Below are positions 25,286 through 31,930 of a stretch of 64,000 bases of DNA, piece after piece (position 1 is the first letter of the stretch; every line of letters begins with the position of its first letter). The notes below the pieces were generated by a model. That model saw only the letters and a program-made list of their open reading frames with translations. It had not been told where the DNA came from and made no database searches. A program made the position numbers and the translations under genes. Origin of the DNA: Candidatus Pseudothioglobus singularis PS1 (GTDB lineage Bacteria; Pseudomonadota; Gammaproteobacteria; PS1; Pseudothioglobaceae); assembly GCF_001281385.1 (NCBI RefSeq), contig NZ_CP006911.1:1116001-1180000 (forward strand), read 5' to 3'.

Positions 25286-25384
25286 GTCAGCTTCTAATAA
25301 AACTTAAGTTAATTTTTTTTAAAAAAATATAATCTAGTTCAAACTGATATACTTTATTCATTATGATTTATTTTGAATTATTTT

Positions 25385-26872
25385 ATGAATGAGCAGTTCA
25401 GAATTGCACAAAAATTAGGTCTCATGTTTCGTCCAGAAAATCCATTACCTGAAGACATAAAATCATGGGCAATAAAACAACTCAACGCAAAATCACCTGC
25501 ATTAGGAGTCAACAACACTCAAGCAAAAAAAATTCAGGAATGGCCAGATCAGCTTCAACCCGACCTGCTCACCCGAGATAACCTCTACAGCGAATACAAA
25601 TATAACAGACAGAGAGAAGAAATGGATCTGGCGGGCTACTCCTCAGAAGCCGCCAAGCAGGATAACGAAAAAAAACACTTGTTACTTAAGACAGACCAAT
25701 TGAAATTTTCACACAGAAATGTTTTTGGTAACGATCAAGTCAAACTCCGATTCTCTTCCTTTTGGACAAATCACTTTACTACCGGAAATATTTGGGACAA
25801 CCAAAACCATATTGGTCACATGATGGAGGAGGCAATCCTTGCAAACCTAAATAACAACTTCTCCGAAATGTTATACAAAGTGACAACACACCCATCAATG
25901 CTGGTTTATTTGGATAATTGCTGGAGCTGCGGAGAGAGATCTCAAACTGCGATATGGGCTAAACAAAACGGCGAGCAAGCTGGGCTAAATGATAACCTTG
26001 GTAGAGAGCTACTCGAGCTCCACACTGTATCGCCATCTGCAAAATATACTGAGTCTGACATTAGAGGAGCTGCCAATACTTTGGCCGGCTGGGGCATATG
26101 GCCAGGAAGAATATCAGATCAATCAGAGTTGTTGTCGATTCCACAGAGACACCAAAAACTGTTAAAGATGGGAGGAACAATCAATTCCTGGGACTTCTTC
26201 AAACAGGATCATGCAGAACCTGGCAATAAAAAAGTTTTAGGCAAGGTGGTACCTGCTGGTAAAGGTGGTCTCAGACAGCTTACTGATTTTCTTGCTGCGC
26301 ACGAACACACCGTCAAGCATATCTCTTTTAAATTGGCTCAGCACTTTGTGAGCGATAACCCAAGCAAAGCTGATACTGACTTTATAGCTAATGCCTGGAG
26401 AAAAAGTAACGGTAGTCTGGATGAAATTCATTCTGCTGTGATTGAACGTGCTATTCAGTCAAAAGAGCCTAAATTTCAATGGCCAATGACTTGGTTATTC
26501 CAAGTTGTAAGGCTTAGCGATGCAAGATTTTTCAAGGGTTGGGCTCAATTAAATAGGTACGATAATTACATAATGGAATCTCGTGAGATTTTTGAGGAGC
26601 TTGGTCAGGGTTTTTGGCATGAAAGGCAGCCTGACGGTTACTCGAGTGACAAGAAAGAGTGGCTGTCTGGTGAAATGTTTGAGCGGCGCATTCGATTTGC
26701 TGATGCCATTTATACTGCTGGAAGGCCAAAATTTAAGTCGGACGATATCATGAATAGAATCAATGCAAATGATACAACTCGAAACCTTGTAGCTAGTGTT
26801 GGTATGAGTGAAAAAACAAAATTCATTGCGTTGATGTGTAGTCCTGAAATAATGGGGTTGGAGAATGCCTAA
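25385..26872 (+). CDS. DUF1800 family protein
   Basis: The 495-residue protein contains the family core: FWTNHFTTG, then ILANLNNNFSEMLYKVTTHPSMLVYLDN, and the characteristic NLGRELLELHT followed by YTESDIRGAANTLAGW. The function of the family is not established. It is nearly always encoded with a DUF1501 protein, as here, where its stop overlaps the next start by 8 bp. No signal peptide is seen from ATG 25385 (TTG at 25373 adds four residues). If it is periplasmic it may be carried out with its Tat-dependent partner. CWSCGE near residue 180 is a possible disulfide or metal site. Confidence 0.9.
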   Translation: MNEQFRIAQKLGLMFRPENPLPEDIKSWAIKQLNAKSPALGVNNTQAKKIQEWPDQLQPDLLTRDNLYSEYKYNRQREEMDLAGYSSEAAKQDNEKKHLLLKTDQLKFSHRNVFGNDQVKLRFSSFWTNHFTTGNIWDNQNHIGHMMEEAILANLNNNFSEMLYKVTTHPSMLVYLDNCWSCGERSQTAIWAKQNGEQAGLNDNLGRELLELHTVSPSAKYTESDIRGAANTLAGWGIWPGRISDQSELLSIPQRHQKLLKMGGTINSWDFFKQDHAEPGNKKVLGKVVPAGKGGLRQLTDFLAAHEHTVKHISFKLAQHFVSDNPSKADTDFIANAWRKSNGSLDEIHSAVIERAIQSKEPKFQWPMTWLFQVVRLSDARFFKGWAQLNRYDNYIMESREIFEELGQGFWHERQPDGYSSDKKEWLSGEMFERRIRFADAIYTAGRPKFKSDDIMNRINANDTTRNLVASVGMSEKTKFIALMCSPEIMGLENA

Positions 26873-28016
26873 ATTAAATTTAACGAGAAGACAGTTCTTA
26901 AAGACATCAGGGGCCTCATTATTTCTTGCAGGCCTTCCTCTTCCCGGCTTCACAAAAGATAAACCTCCAGGAACGATTTCAGTCATTATGCTTGAAGGTG
27001 GAATGGATGGCTTAGCCGCTGTGCCGCCCATAGGTGACCCTGATCTTTCTAGAATGAGAAAGGGATTGGTTCCTGACAACTATCTAAAACTCAACTCTCT
27101 ATTTGCGTTGCACCCATCCTTTCAATACTTTGGTGGACTGATGGCTAAAAATAATGCCTCAATTGTTCATGCAACAAACTTTCCATATACTTTAAGATCG
27201 CACTTTGAAGGCCAAAACTTAATGCAAGGTGGTGGATTAAGTCCATTTTCGGAGTCTACTGGTTGGCTCGGAAGAGCGCTTGATCTAGCAATGCTACCTG
27301 GAAGATCACTCTCACTGGATATGCCATTACTGTTAAGGGGTACTGATAAAAACGATAACTTCTACCCAGCCAGTGTCCGAAGCTCCAGCAAGCTATCAAC
27401 CCAACTTATTGATATGATTTCTATGGCTCACTCCAAGGAAGGCGCTTCAGTTTTCAACAAGGTCAGTCAAAAAAGTACTCAGAAGGACTCCATCGTTCCA
27501 AGAGACCCGGCCAGTTTAGCCAAATATGCCGGTAAGGCAATGTCTCAAGAAGGTGGTCCTCTGTCCTCCGTTATTAAAGTCACTCAGTTTGATACGCATG
27601 CTAGTCAGGGAGCCAATGAAAATGGCTACCATGGCAGGCAAATGACTTTGATTGATGACATTATTGCAGGATACAGAGAGGGGCTTGGTGATGCCTGGGA
27701 CAGAAGCATTATCTTAACCTTAACTGAGTTTGGAAGAACAGTCAAAATTAATGGGACCTGGGGGACAGATCATGGTTATGGCTCTGCGGGACTTTTGGCG
27801 GGAGGTTCAATTACTAAAAGTAGAGTTATTTCTGAATGGCCTGGACTTGCTGAGCGTGACCTATTTCAAAAAAGGGATGTAATGTCAACCATTGACTATC
27901 GCTCTGTATGTGCTGCCTGTATCGAGAATGCCCTCGGGCTTGATCACGATTTGATTGCGGATAAGGTCTTCTTTACCCCTAAATTACCTCGAGTCTACGA
28001 CTATATTTTTTCATAA
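26865..28016 (+). CDS. DUF1501 family Tat-exported protein
   Basis: The 383-residue protein starts with a twin-arginine signal (TRRQFLKTSG, then a hydrophobic stretch, LAGLPLPGF). It then has a sulfatase/alkaline-phosphatase-like fold, with the family segments VIMLEGGMDGL, FDTHASQGAN, and LTEFGRTVKINGTWGTDHGYG, in which His and Asp could bind metal. The enzymatic role of DUF1501 is unproven. It overlaps the DUF1800 gene by 8 bp (ATGCCTAA), which indicates translational coupling. Confidence 0.92.
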   Translation: MPKLNLTRRQFLKTSGASLFLAGLPLPGFTKDKPPGTISVIMLEGGMDGLAAVPPIGDPDLSRMRKGLVPDNYLKLNSLFALHPSFQYFGGLMAKNNASIVHATNFPYTLRSHFEGQNLMQGGGLSPFSESTGWLGRALDLAMLPGRSLSLDMPLLLRGTDKNDNFYPASVRSSSKLSTQLIDMISMAHSKEGASVFNKVSQKSTQKDSIVPRDPASLAKYAGKAMSQEGGPLSSVIKVTQFDTHASQGANENGYHGRQMTLIDDIIAGYREGLGDAWDRSIILTLTEFGRTVKINGTWGTDHGYGSAGLLAGGSITKSRVISEWPGLAERDLFQKRDVMSTIDYRSVCAACIENALGLDHDLIADKVFFTPKLPRVYDYIFS

Positions 28017-28080: not shown

Positions 28081-29661
28081 ATGAATAAAATATACCTGCT
28101 TTTATTTCTGACATTGTTCTCTGTAAAAAGCTACGCAGGGGATTGTCCTGATGGTAGCGATCCGATTAAATCGATTTCAGATGATGGTACATACTTTGTA
28201 TACAAGTGTGGTGGTAGTTCAAATAATAACTCAGCAGCTGATACGTCATCAAATAATACTTCATCGGTCAAAGCCTCAGAAATAGAGATATATGACGTTG
28301 CTTTTTCTTCTGATGTTTTAGAGGATTTACTAAATAGGATAGTCTCAAAACTGGATTATGACTTCAGTAATCATAAGTTGGCAAAAAGTGTTGAAGATGC
28401 AAACTGTAGGTTCACCTTAAAAAGAATCGTCTACGATAAAAGTGAATCTGGCGAATTGGAAAATTGGAACATGGCCTTAGGCTATATTAATATTAAGGAT
28501 GCAAATGTAGATTTTGTTAAATCCTCTTGGAGGATGGGTGGACTTTCGATTGATCCAAGTTTCTTCATTGACGAAACAAATATAAAGCTCACAGAAGATG
28601 GTCACTTTGTTGGGAAAATGGCCTACTTTAATAGAAGCGTAGATAAAGGCGAAGTCCCAGAAAACCCTACATATCCCACTCTCATTAAACACCAAAGGTC
28701 AAATGCTGCAACTTTTAAAGATAACAAAATAGTTGAGGCGAAGTACTTTATTGATGTTGAGGATTGGGCTGGAGGCGTATTATTTGTAACCGGCTGCAGG
28801 GATGGTATTCTAGTTCCAAAAAAACCTAAGACAGTTAAAAAAGTAGCCAAAAAAGTTGAAACTAAAGAAAAAGCAACAGAAAACAAAACAAAAAAAGTAG
28901 CCCCAACCACTCAACCATCGACCTCTGCATCAGACCCAGTTATATCAAAAGTGGTTGAGGTTACGCATGGAGACAAACTTGTTGTAAACATTGCCGAACC
29001 TCATGAGCTTGCTGACAACTATATAAAAGTATCTTTGAAAGATATTGACGCGCCAGATGCTACAAAATCATGCCCTAAGCAGATCGAATTTGGAGTCAAG
29101 GTAAGGGATTATGTCTCCAAAAGACTGAGTGATGCGTCTTCTATCAAACTTAGCAACATCAGAAAAACAAATACCAAGCTCATTGCACAAGTTATTGTTG
29201 ATGGCAAAGATTTAGGTAATGAGCTCGTAGAAATGGGTTACGCATCTGAAGAGTACGGCTTCTGGAAGCCATACTATTGTAGTGCTTTAACAGCGGTTCA
29301 AGCGGGCCAACAACTCTTTGATAAAGACCCTGACATGTCTATCTTCTGGCTTGAGCGCTCATTGATATTAGACCCAGATGGCAGCAACAATACGTTATCA
29401 ACCTTTCTTCTAAGCCAGCAATATGAAAATAAGGGTGAGGAAAAAATATCTATTGATTATCTAAAGAGATCTGCATCACTAGGATGGGTCCAAGCAATGG
29501 AAGAGCTTGGACAGCAATATCTTATTGGTAGCAGAGTTAATCAAGATAAAAATCAAGGAAAAAAATGGCTTAAAAAGGCTCACGACAAAGGTAGTCAAAT
29601 TGCTGAGACAATATTCTGCAACTCACTTCCTGTTGCAAAACAAAACTCTTGTAGATTATAG
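28081..29661 (+). CDS. Secreted protein with inactive nuclease-like (SNase) domain and Sel1/TPR-like repeats
   Basis: The 526-residue protein has a Sec signal peptide (cleavage after SYA, residue 19) and a low-complexity Ser/Asn segment. It then has an unrecognised domain (about 65-240), a Lys/Thr-rich linker (245-285), a staphylococcal-nuclease-fold domain (291-400), and one or two Sel1-like helical repeats (425-510). The nuclease fold is recognisable from VEVTHGDKLVV, KDIDAPDA and VIVDGKDLGNELVEMGYA. However, the catalytic Arg35, Glu43 and Arg87 positions are S318, D326 and K366, so cleavage is not expected. It follows the DUF1501 gene by 64 bp, with AAGGAG 13 nt before ATG, and is possibly cotranscribed. 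Confidence 0.75.
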   Translation: MNKIYLLLFLTLFSVKSYAGDCPDGSDPIKSISDDGTYFVYKCGGSSNNNSAADTSSNNTSSVKASEIEIYDVAFSSDVLEDLLNRIVSKLDYDFSNHKLAKSVEDANCRFTLKRIVYDKSESGELENWNMALGYINIKDANVDFVKSSWRMGGLSIDPSFFIDETNIKLTEDGHFVGKMAYFNRSVDKGEVPENPTYPTLIKHQRSNAATFKDNKIVEAKYFIDVEDWAGGVLFVTGCRDGILVPKKPKTVKKVAKKVETKEKATENKTKKVAPTTQPSTSASDPVISKVVEVTHGDKLVVNIAEPHELADNYIKVSLKDIDAPDATKSCPKQIEFGVKVRDYVSKRLSDASSIKLSNIRKTNTKLIAQVIVDGKDLGNELVEMGYASEEYGFWKPYYCSALTAVQAGQQLFDKDPDMSIFWLERSLILDPDGSNNTLSTFLLSQQYENKGEEKISIDYLKRSASLGWVQAMEELGQQYLIGSRVNQDKNQGKKWLKKAHDKGSQIAETIFCNSLPVAKQNSCRL

Positions 29662-29685: not shown

Positions 29686-31380
29686 TTAAGAGCTTTCAAT
29701 TGACTCAATCATAAGCTGCAAAGACTCATTCCCTCTAAATGAATTGACATTGAGCTTATAAGCCACCCTAGCCTTCTTGGAATCAAGCTTTTCCTGAAAA
29801 AAAGCGATTCCCTCTAAAACTGAATTTGTACCTTGGAGTTTTAAATTACACTTGAGATGTTTTTCACCCACAATTCTCTGTTCAACTAGCTCAAAGTCAC
29901 CATAAAAAATGGGCTCTTCAAAACCCTGACCCCAGGGTGAAGCTTGCCTCAACAGCTCTGCATTTTTAAGGGTTATTTCAGCTGAATCAAGACTTCCATC
30001 GGTTAGAAGCTCGATAATTGGTTTTTTACCTTTGAGATGCTTTGTTATTTCCTCAGTAAATGCATTTTTGAACTGCTCAAAGTTATCTGGATTGATGGTC
30101 AAACCTGCCGCCATCGCATGGCCACCAAACTTCTCAATGAGTCCTTGATTTTCTCTATCAACAAGGTCTAGCAAGTCTTTGATGTGGACATCTGGAATAG
30201 AGCGTATAGAGCCCTTTAAAACGTTATCTGCCTTGGCAAACACTGCAGATGGGCACTGATAGGTTTCTTTGAGTTTTCCAGCAACAATACCGACCACTCC
30301 CTCGTGCCAAGACTCGTCATAGAGAACGATTGCAAAATCACTCTTATCGATAGCTTGATCTTCAACAATAGCTAGAGCCTCGTCCTGCATACGAGTCTGC
30401 TCTTTGCGCCTTTTAATATTAAACTCTTCAAGCGTTTGCGCATACCTTCTCGCATCATTCATATCATCTGATAAGAGGCAGCGAATCCCCTGAGAAATAT
30501 CACTGAGTCTTCCTGCCGCATTGATTCTTGGTGCGACTGTAAATCCAAGGTCAGATGCTTGAAGCGACTCAACTGGCCTTTTTGTTAACTCAAGGATGGC
30601 AAGGATGCCTTTTGAGCACCGTTTTTCACGAATACGCTTGATTCCTTCATTCACTAGAATTCGATTGTTTTGATCCAGTTTTACAACATCTGCAACGGTT
30701 CCAAGTGCAACTAAATCAAGAAGCGTTCGAAGGTCTGGATTTTGAATATTATTCTTTTCAAAATAACCTTGTTTTGTGAGATAGGTTTTAAGTGATGAAA
30801 ACAAATAAAAACAGACCCCAACCCCAGCCAAATTTTTTGATGGAAAATCACAACCCCTTAAATTGGGATTAATAATCGCATTGGCATTGGGAAGCTCATT
30901 AGGCGGAAGGTGATGATCTGTGATAATGACGTCAATATCAAGGGATCTTGCAAGTTCTGCACCCTCATTACTTGATATGCCATTATCGACCGTAATAATG
31001 AGATCTGGCTCTTTATCACGCTTTGCCTCATTAACGATCTCAGGACTGAGACCATAGCCATGCTTAAAACGATTTGGAACTAAAAAATCGACATGTTTTG
31101 CACCCATGAGTCTTAGCGCCTTAATAGCCACTGCACTGGCAGTTGCACCGTCCGCATCAAAATCTCCAACAATCAGGATCTGCTTATCCTCTAAGAGGCA
31201 TTTCTCAAGAAGCTCTAGGGCGATATTGAGTTGGTCAAAGTTGGGCTTAAGAAGACCAGGAAGCGCCATTGAGAGCTGCGACTCAGAGACGCCTCTGGCT
31301 GCATAGATTCTTTTGAGAATTAAGGGTATATCGTCAGAATATGACTCATACAAGGATTGATCAATCTCTCTAGTCAGCAC
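29686..31380 (-). CDS. recJ: Single-stranded-DNA-specific exonuclease RecJ
   Basis: This 5'-3' ssDNA exonuclease acts in recombination, mismatch and base-excision repair. The 564 residues have the DHH motifs: DFDADGATA, then TVDNG, then TDHHLPP, and the DHHA1 domain with KFGGHAMAAGLTI. An OB-fold region near the C terminus is present (SPWGQGFEEPIFYGDF). The length is typical of gammaproteobacteria. The start overlaps the end of the upstream DUF1566 gene by 11 bp. It converges with the pseudo-nuclease gene. Confidence 0.97.
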   Translation of the reverse strand: MLTREIDQSLYESYSDDIPLILKRIYAARGVSESQLSMALPGLLKPNFDQLNIALELLEKCLLEDKQILIVGDFDADGATASAVAIKALRLMGAKHVDFLVPNRFKHGYGLSPEIVNEAKRDKEPDLIITVDNGISSNEGAELARSLDIDVIITDHHLPPNELPNANAIINPNLRGCDFPSKNLAGVGVCFYLFSSLKTYLTKQGYFEKNNIQNPDLRTLLDLVALGTVADVVKLDQNNRILVNEGIKRIREKRCSKGILAILELTKRPVESLQASDLGFTVAPRINAAGRLSDISQGIRCLLSDDMNDARRYAQTLEEFNIKRRKEQTRMQDEALAIVEDQAIDKSDFAIVLYDESWHEGVVGIVAGKLKETYQCPSAVFAKADNVLKGSIRSIPDVHIKDLLDLVDRENQGLIEKFGGHAMAAGLTINPDNFEQFKNAFTEEITKHLKGKKPIIELLTDGSLDSAEITLKNAELLRQASPWGQGFEEPIFYGDFELVEQRIVGEKHLKCNLKLQGTNSVLEGIAFFQEKLDSKKARVAYKLNVNSFRGNESLQLMIESIESS

Positions 31381-31930
31381 TTCTTACAAGTCTTACAAAA
31401 GTGTCAATGGTTTTCTCACGCGCCTTTGAGCCGCCATAGAAAAAAGGCACCTCGAAGGCGAGTTTAGGGCTATTTGTGACTGAATCAGAGGTCCAATAAG
31501 TATTCTTCTGAGTGTTAGGAAAAAAGTCTGTATTAATGAGCGTATCGCTCTCACCATAATAGTCAACAATCGTATTTAATTCATCAAGTGATGGAAGGCG
31601 CCAATCTGCATAACCACAAAGATTGGCTTTATTTATATCGGCAGTAAAGGACAGTGTATTGCAGTTTTTACCCCAATAACAATTCTTAGTATAGGTCCCA
31701 TTATCTCTCCCACTCTCACCATCAAACCAAGTATAGGTGTTGAGGCTATATTGAATGCCTTCTTCTTCACTCTTGACTTCCCAGAGAAGTGACTTACTGT
31801 CATCTAAAACGCAGGACCAAGCCTCACTATCTAAAGCTAAAATTTCGCCAGAATCTGAAACTTTATGCATTTCAGCTAATGCCGAAATACTCATCAAATA
31901 AAGTAAAGGTAATAAAAGAAATTTATTCAT
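31370..31930 (-). CDS. Secreted DUF1566 domain protein
   Basis: The 186-residue protein has a Sec signal peptide (MNKFLLLPLLYLMSISALA). It also has a DUF1566/Lcl-type domain recognised by LLWEVK, NLCGYADWRLPSLDELNTIVDY, NTYWTSD and a C-terminal FVRLVR. Four Cys residues in the mature part suit an exported, disulfide-bonded protein. The function is unknown; related domains occur in adhesins. It overlaps recJ by 11 bp and follows lspA by 68 bp. Confidence 0.85.
   Translation of the reverse strand: MNKFLLLPLLYLMSISALAEMHKVSDSGEILALDSEAWSCVLDDSKSLLWEVKSEEEGIQYSLNTYTWFDGESGRDNGTYTKNCYWGKNCNTLSFTADINKANLCGYADWRLPSLDELNTIVDYYGESDTLINTDFFPNTQKNTYWTSDSVTNSPKLAFEVPFFYGGSKAREKTIDTFVRLVRSAD

Follow-up and report, generated by a model that had tools for sequence, protein, structure and literature searches.

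A putative exported adaptor protein of Candidatus Pseudothioglobus singularis carries an SNase-derived domain in which the catalytic triad is replaced

The third gene of a DUF1800-DUF1501 cluster in Candidatus Pseudothioglobus singularis PS1 encodes a predicted exported protein that ends in an SNase domain with replaced catalytic residues, followed by a Sel1-like tail. On balance, we lean towards the reading that this SNase-Sel1 cassette is catalytically dead, that it serves the protein as a putative binding or adaptor tail, and that it was gained by fusion through a slot located before recJ. The window analyzed here is a stretch of 64,000 nucleotides (positions 1,116,001 to 1,180,000 of contig NZ_CP006911.1) from a genome of 1.714 Mb in one contig. 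Within it, 28081-29661 on the plus strand is a single open frame of 526 codons encoding 526 residues. The other five frames across the same interval contain 19 to 65 stops, and the longest open run in 500 single-base shuffles of the gene, with one frame read, was 158 codons. A Pfam scan of the protein at E up to 1 detected SNase and Sel1 and no further family, and promoter- or terminator-like sites near the gene were not in excess over shuffles. The neighboring genes and the segments of the protein are:

25373..26872, plus strand: DUF1800 gene (Pfam E 5.8e-65)
26865..28016, plus strand: DUF1501 gene with a Tat-like leader (Pfam DUF1501 E 2.1e-22)
28081..28137, plus strand: signal-peptide-like leader, residues 1-19, with a conserved Ala19 before the presumed cleavage site
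28138..28224, plus strand: prefix stretch CPDGS...DGTY...C, residues 20-48, with two cysteines, both invariant in 13 rows
28267..28803, plus strand: lineage-specific middle domain, residues about 63-241, with no Pfam family over cut-off
28804..28932, plus strand: lysine/threonine-rich linker, residues 242-284, net charge +9
28933..29295, plus strand: SNase-derived domain with catalytic residues replaced, residues 285-405 (Pfam and alignment)
29296..29661, plus strand: TPR/Sel1-like tail and stop codon, residues 406-526 (Pfam, phmmer and model)
29686..31380, minus strand: recJ, convergent, on the far side of the conserved slot (NCBIfam TIGR00644, 499 bits against a cut-off of 396.9)

Pfam matches and the neighborhood rows confirm that the gene follows a DUF1800-DUF1501 pair, as a preliminary description of this DNA had stated. 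The two genes of the pair share an 8-base overlap, and the DUF1501 product matched the TAT_signal profile at 19.5 bits, under the cut-off of 22.7. Adjoining recJ on its other side, 31370-31930 (minus strand) encodes an Lcl_C domain (PF07603) protein with a signal-like leader; a protein that resembles it by eye also follows recJ in G016 (L134:1840-2397).

The same description had assigned the protein an N-terminal domain of about 175 residues and of no recognized kind. Such a domain is present at residues of about 63-241; it constitutes a family of its own and comes after the leader and two-cysteine stretch. A PDB sequence search with the middle domain found nothing at E up to 1, phages likewise yielded no match, and its single-sequence structure model, with a mean pLDDT of 33, was unusable. 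Its distribution, like that of the prefix and the cassette described below, was scored over 83 genomes of the family and order. The middle domain occurs 22 times, in 19 of the 83 genomes, and DUF1501 passes its cut-off 22 times as well. For 19 copies of each, the DUF1501 gene lies within 1 kb upstream of the middle domain, on the same strand. The three exceptions are G010 C8 and G023 C38, which are at contig ends, and a partial copy in G019; G010 C8 and C55 possibly represent opposite ends of a single gene. Conversely, DUF1501 occurs without the middle domain in G062, G063 C55 and G083. Among 369 genomes of the class, the window's own genome alone matched.

The order DUF1800-DUF1501-middle domain-recJ was found on one contig in 14 of 28 neighborhood rows (G000, G018, G004, G020, G042, G003, G013, G022, G011, G041, G007, G017, G008 and G063), with DUF1800 only partly matched in G013 and G007 and recJ in pieces in G008. 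The recJ pieces of G008 (L067) overlap or shift frame, pointing either to a broken gene or to a sequencing artefact. Among the remaining 14 rows are second contigs belonging to four genomes, rows cut at contig ends and lone recJ genes (for example in the single-contig G040); in G001 and G019 the DUF1800-DUF1501-middle domain trio and recJ are on separate contigs. Same-strand adjacency to the DUF1800-DUF1501 cluster thus recurs in several genomes. Together, the proximity to DUF1501 and the conserved gene order argue that the middle domain is a third partner of the DUF1800-DUF1501 pair in this lineage. Orthologues elsewhere mostly stop at the end of the domain or bear other C-terminal extensions, and an SNase-Sel1 sequence in frame after the middle domain was found in the window genome only.

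The N-terminal leader is Sec-like as judged by eye, and S14 and A19 are unchanged across 13 aligned prefixes. Cleavage would presumably occur after Ala19, and the 526-residue protein is predicted to be secreted, in support of what had been proposed earlier. The leader and two-cysteine stretch (residues 1-48) form a prefix that is not confined to this gene. It occurs at 45 strong places, one of which spans positions 1-32 only, in 18 of the 83 genomes, and 17 of those 18 are among the 29 genomes of the genus; the count leaves out six weak rows that span only the first 19 to 28 positions. The 369 class genomes gave one weak match beyond the window's own genome. We collected 44 ORFs with the prefix, a few of them fragments and one of them (L095) matching in the leader only, and scanned 27 of the 44 with Pfam. 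FG-GAP_3 repeats were detected in 11, alginate lyase in 2, Polysacc_lyase in 2, a GH5 cellulase in 1 and SNase/Sel1 in 2 (the window protein and that of G042), while 9 had no family over cut-off.

Several prefix genes have arrangements of their own. Four are clustered at L074:5716-14208 (G018 C4), encoding one protein without a Pfam match, a GH5 cellulase and two FG-GAP proteins. In the window's genome a single further gene with the prefix was listed, L064:1861-2478 (minus strand), which encodes 205 residues with a Ser/Gly-rich end and no family over cut-off. In another species a different prefix protein, with an alginate lyase match under threshold only, occupies the third-gene position just before recJ (L219 / L029, G014 C69). 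Some middle-domain orthologues (L009, L010, L011, L022, L062 and L067) bear, in place of the CPDGS prefix, a different short leader of the form ~DDWPDD..C.W...KR...C, also with two cysteines, suggesting that N-terminal leaders are exchanged too.

The partners of the prefix, which include polysaccharide lyases, a GH5 cellulase and FG-GAP proteins, lean indirectly towards a polysaccharide- or surface-related role for the window protein. DUF1800-DUF1501 pairs adjoin chitin synthase genes in some other bacteria (PMC5122149), and this would be consistent with such a role. Support for peptidoglycan-linked partners, which the preliminary description had raised, is slight: the window protein has no such Pfam domain, and PG_binding_1 was matched in 1 of the 27 scanned prefix-bearing proteins.

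The SNase profile PF00565 matched residues 316-396 at 33.1 bits, above the cut-off of 21, and membership of the SNase family is borne out by the HMM check that had been suggested. The homologue in AG-313-C04 (G042) fell short of this cut-off when the whole protein was scanned (19.1) and passed it in the genome scan (22.5). Residue equivalences come from alignment to intact SNases of the short form. These include a paralogue from the same genome (L063 2129-2710, minus strand), itself a weak match to nuclease A (best E 0.0067). On the plus strand, the seven positions read from the alignment columns are:

28966..28968, plus strand: H296, at the D19 position, changed
28972..28974, plus strand: D298, at the D21 position, kept
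29032..29034, plus strand: S318, at the R35 position, changed
29047..29049, plus strand: D323, at the D40 position, kept
29050..29052, plus strand: A324, at the T41 position, changed
29056..29058, plus strand: D326, at the E43 position, changed
29176..29178, plus strand: K366, at the R87 position, changed

The alignment with intact paralogues bears out the earlier assignment of S318, D326 and K366 to the Arg, Glu and Arg positions, with the neighboring Asp, D323, retained. The protein thus differs from active thermonucleases in lacking the R35/E43/R87 triad, and has the calcium-site acids D21 and D40, as D298 and D323. What Arg35, Glu43 and Arg87 do in nuclease A is described in PMC8436206.

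An R/E/R triad is present in 59 of the 61 SNase rows that could be read at all three columns, a figure that covers readable rows and not every SNase match in the family. The two exceptions, the window protein and its AG-313-C04 homologue, both read S/D/K and have the same letters at all seven positions. These rows come from an alignment of 65 distinct sequences, from which four fragments (two L155, two L156) with gaps at the triad columns were dropped. The count is also without a G062 fragment, in which the part with R35 and E43 is missing, and without G045 C13, which is over the Pfam SNase cut-off and under the threshold of the alignment profile. The latter (L071:3766-5043) is a 425-residue protein, presumably DNA methyltransferase-like as named by eye from its sequence, with a weak SNase-like end that by eye is without parts of the active site; it is possibly a second, separate case of an altered SNase in the same genome family.

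Catalytic residues at shifted positions, which had been named in advance as grounds for rejecting the loss of the triad, were looked for in the alignment and ruled out, as the pair has no conserved displaced Arg or Glu. The arginine closest to K366, R361, is a lysine in the homologue, and the glutamate closest to D326 is ten residues further on.

Retention of the SNase family signature by profile and of the D21 and D40 equivalents would suit a protein that captures extracellular DNA or RNA and leaves it uncut, serving attachment or scavenging, and the Tudor-SN SN domains, whose catalytic residues are mostly degenerate, share in RNA binding (PMC5900569). We consider this unlikely. Two phosphate-contacting arginines are lost (S318 and K366), and the net charge of the domain, 0 in the window protein and -3 in the homologue, lends no support; as both values lie within the range of -8 to +8 of 59 other rows, charge does not discriminate for nucleic-acid binding. 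Moreover, no link to nucleic acids is known for DUF1800, DUF1501 or the partners of the prefix; the convergent recJ, by contrast, is a nucleic-acid gene. The earlier proposal of a binding protein for nucleic acid or for peptidoglycan-linked partners survives in part, as a non-catalytic, exported and probably binding protein, and none of the evidence favors nucleic acid as its target.

Mutations of nuclease A at these positions cost several orders of magnitude, and in both species R35 is replaced by serine, D19 by histidine and T41 by alanine. These changes make it improbable that the domain is an altered but active phosphodiesterase that uses D326, K366, H296 and the kept aspartates on a new substrate, as does the alanine aligned to R87 in the G062 fragment, where a lysine is found one position earlier. 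Such an enzyme would account for the conservative nature of the E-to-D and R-to-K changes, for the retention of D298 and D323, and for the likeness of all seven positions in the two species. D326 and K366, together with the two remaining acidic metal positions, may indeed allow residual activity. Caution in inferring inactivity from residues alone is also advised by Tudor-SN, which in C. elegans is a ribonuclease and cuts RNA despite the mostly degenerate catalytic residues of its SN domains (PMC5900569).

We compared the window genome with that of AG-313-C04, taking the intact nuclease that both also encode as a reference for the altered domain. The altered SNase domains are 76.7% identical over 116 residues with a dN of 0.152, and the intact nucleases are 77.1% identical over 118 residues with a dN of 0.135. 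Identities of the other parts are 53.9% for the Sel1 tail, 44.7% for the middle domain, 66.8% for DUF1501 and 60.5% for DUF1800. Values of dN were calculated by NG86. Saturation at synonymous sites affected all six comparisons, and for this reason dN alone is compared and no dN/dS ratio is given. By these measures the altered SNase domain is under roughly the same constraint as the intact enzyme and has changed less than the other parts examined, and the near-equal dN and identity indicate that it is not decaying in this pair. Conservation like that of the intact nuclease, together with the identical replacement of the triad in two species, supports the non-catalytic reading put forward at the outset. 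In a midpoint-rooted tree of 59 SNase rows, the altered pair was joined with support of 100/100 and grouped with 14 short-form intact nucleases at 99/97. The stem of the pair measures 3.92 changes per column, so long that the precise position of the pair within the short forms is uncertain, and the tips measure 0 and 0.34. A long stem with short tips is consistent with a phase of rapid change after which constraint set in anew. Since the altered domain is kept like a working copy, the comparison suggests that evolution reused it as a building block, probably for binding.

Full SNase-Sel1 cassettes number only two among the 83 genomes, those of the window genome and of G042; the remaining matches at E <= 1e-6 cover part of the cassette, on either its SNase or its Sel1 side. 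AG-313-C04, an uncultured gammaproteobacterium, was also the sole cassette match in public genome contigs, a search in which own-genome records may have been excluded. At E <= 1e-10 two of the 369 class genomes matched, that of the window itself and another of the same family in which SNase is matched in part; G042 is absent from the rows shown for that set, which makes it a thin test inside the family. Viral contigs gave one partial match at 32%, and plasmids gave two partial matches of the thermonuclease family. Between the window protein and G042 the cassette is 63% identical over residues 266-526 and 65% over 279-526.

In G042 the cassette ends a prefix-bearing protein of about 740 residues with a different core. 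From its SxxK, YxN and GGQ motifs we considered that core to be beta-lactamase-like, and neither Pfam nor a PDB sequence search confirmed this. A relative of the core that lacks the cassette is located between the middle-domain gene and recJ in both G042 and G004, and a contig of G016 starts with a stretch that matches the last 36 residues of the tail and adjoins recJ. In the window, the cassette occupies this slot before recJ and is fused to the middle domain. We infer from these occupants of the slot that, in the simplest route, the front of a cassette-bearing slot gene was lost and the 3′ part that remained was joined to the middle-domain gene. In G022, the C-terminal module of a middle-domain protein recurs a few genes off (L068:2549-4879 and L068:9346-10659); one copy is nearly whole and one is partial, ending a prefix-bearing protein, and this is a second case of C-terminal module sharing.

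The cassette can also be lost. G017 has a cassette fragment with a TAG within the matched stretch, and G062, of another genus, has a piece cut at both ends. Such remains, and the restriction of full copies to two among 83 genomes, are what would be expected of a captured nuclease fragment that has no role and is heading for loss. With the frame intact in both full copies, and dN near that of the intact nuclease at a divergence where synonymous sites are saturated, we regard simple decay as a poor explanation, less probable again than a surviving enzyme.

In the tail, PF08238 Sel1 matched residues 471-504 at 23.1 bits, under the cut-off of 30.7, and the G042 homologue scored 36.0, above it. The Sel1-like repeats noted previously therefore hold by likeness in phmmer and in the model and by the homologue's score, but the window's own match is below the Pfam cut-off. 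Against Sel1 repeat structures, phmmer gave a best E of 7.5e-10, and the tail resembles 6deh (LpnE) weakly (sequence E 0.029, fold E 0.38). An AlphaFold model of the cassette from two sequences, with a mean pLDDT of 61 and model residues 1-52 under 50, resembles TPR/Sel1 folds, the VIA-align rows spanning its helical part only. The top row is AlgK (Z 8.3, rmsd 2.6, 58 residues), although helical repeats can reach a Z near 8 simply by sharing a common arrangement. Foldseek found no match to the model at E <= 0.001; as the first half of the SNase domain is poorly modelled, this does not speak against the SNase fold.

TPR/Sel1 repeats commonly mediate protein contacts, and for this reason we propose an adaptor role. 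The scheme that we favor is as follows. The product of the third gene of the DUF1800-DUF1501 cluster bears a C-terminal, in-frame SNase/TPR-Sel1 cassette, whose SNase domain has lost R35, E43, R87 and two further active-site positions, identically in another species, and is under strong constraint at the protein level. The domain would no longer cut nucleic acid, and together with the Sel1-like tail it could tie its host protein to an extracytoplasmic partner, either a protein or a surface polymer. More tentatively, the cassette might be an exchangeable extracytoplasmic adaptor that moves by fusion between unrelated exported proteins of a single bacterial lineage and in this case retargets a so far undescribed third component of the DUF1800-DUF1501 pair. 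A polymorphic-toxin-like system, with a constant prefix and exchangeable C-terminal effector tips of which this would be a blunted nuclease, accords with the varied domains downstream of the prefix in 44 ORFs and with C-terminal modules common to different cores, but is very improbable given that the triad is lost, that the gene directly downstream is the convergent recJ and not immunity-like, and that the 27 scanned prefix proteins comprise 11 FG-GAP proteins, 5 polysaccharide enzymes, 2 SNase/Sel1 proteins and 9 without a family.

If the adaptor reading is correct, this is an example, from a bacterium and in a protein of export type, of an SNase domain retained as a pseudoenzyme. The intact nuclease present in the same two genomes serves as a paired control, which makes the shift from enzyme to non-enzyme directly testable. 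In addition, a third partner conserved in this lineage offers a handle on the uncharacterized DUF1800-DUF1501 pair.

Among known systems, the altered domain resembles the short-form SNases (PF00565, about 142 residues), such as the intact paralogue of the same genome, in its long loop before R35, its cysteine pair and its kept D21 and D40 equivalents. It differs from them in the replacement of R35, E43, R87, D19 and T41, in the long stem that leads to it, and in being part of a larger protein. With Tudor-SN (SND1) it shares an SN-like domain with degenerate catalytic residues, and in that protein the SN domains make contacts with both RNA and protein (PMC5900569). The window protein falls outside the Tudor-SN group, having one SNase domain and no Tudor match by Pfam at E up to 1; it is also bacterial, with an export-type leader and a Sel1-like tail. 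The Sel1/TPR-like tail recalls Sel1 repeat proteins (PF08238) such as AlgK and LpnE, but it is short, and its score lies under the Sel1 cut-off. Finally, the cluster is like other DUF1800-DUF1501 pairs in having both genes, here overlapping, and unlike them in that the pair is followed by a third, lineage-specific gene.
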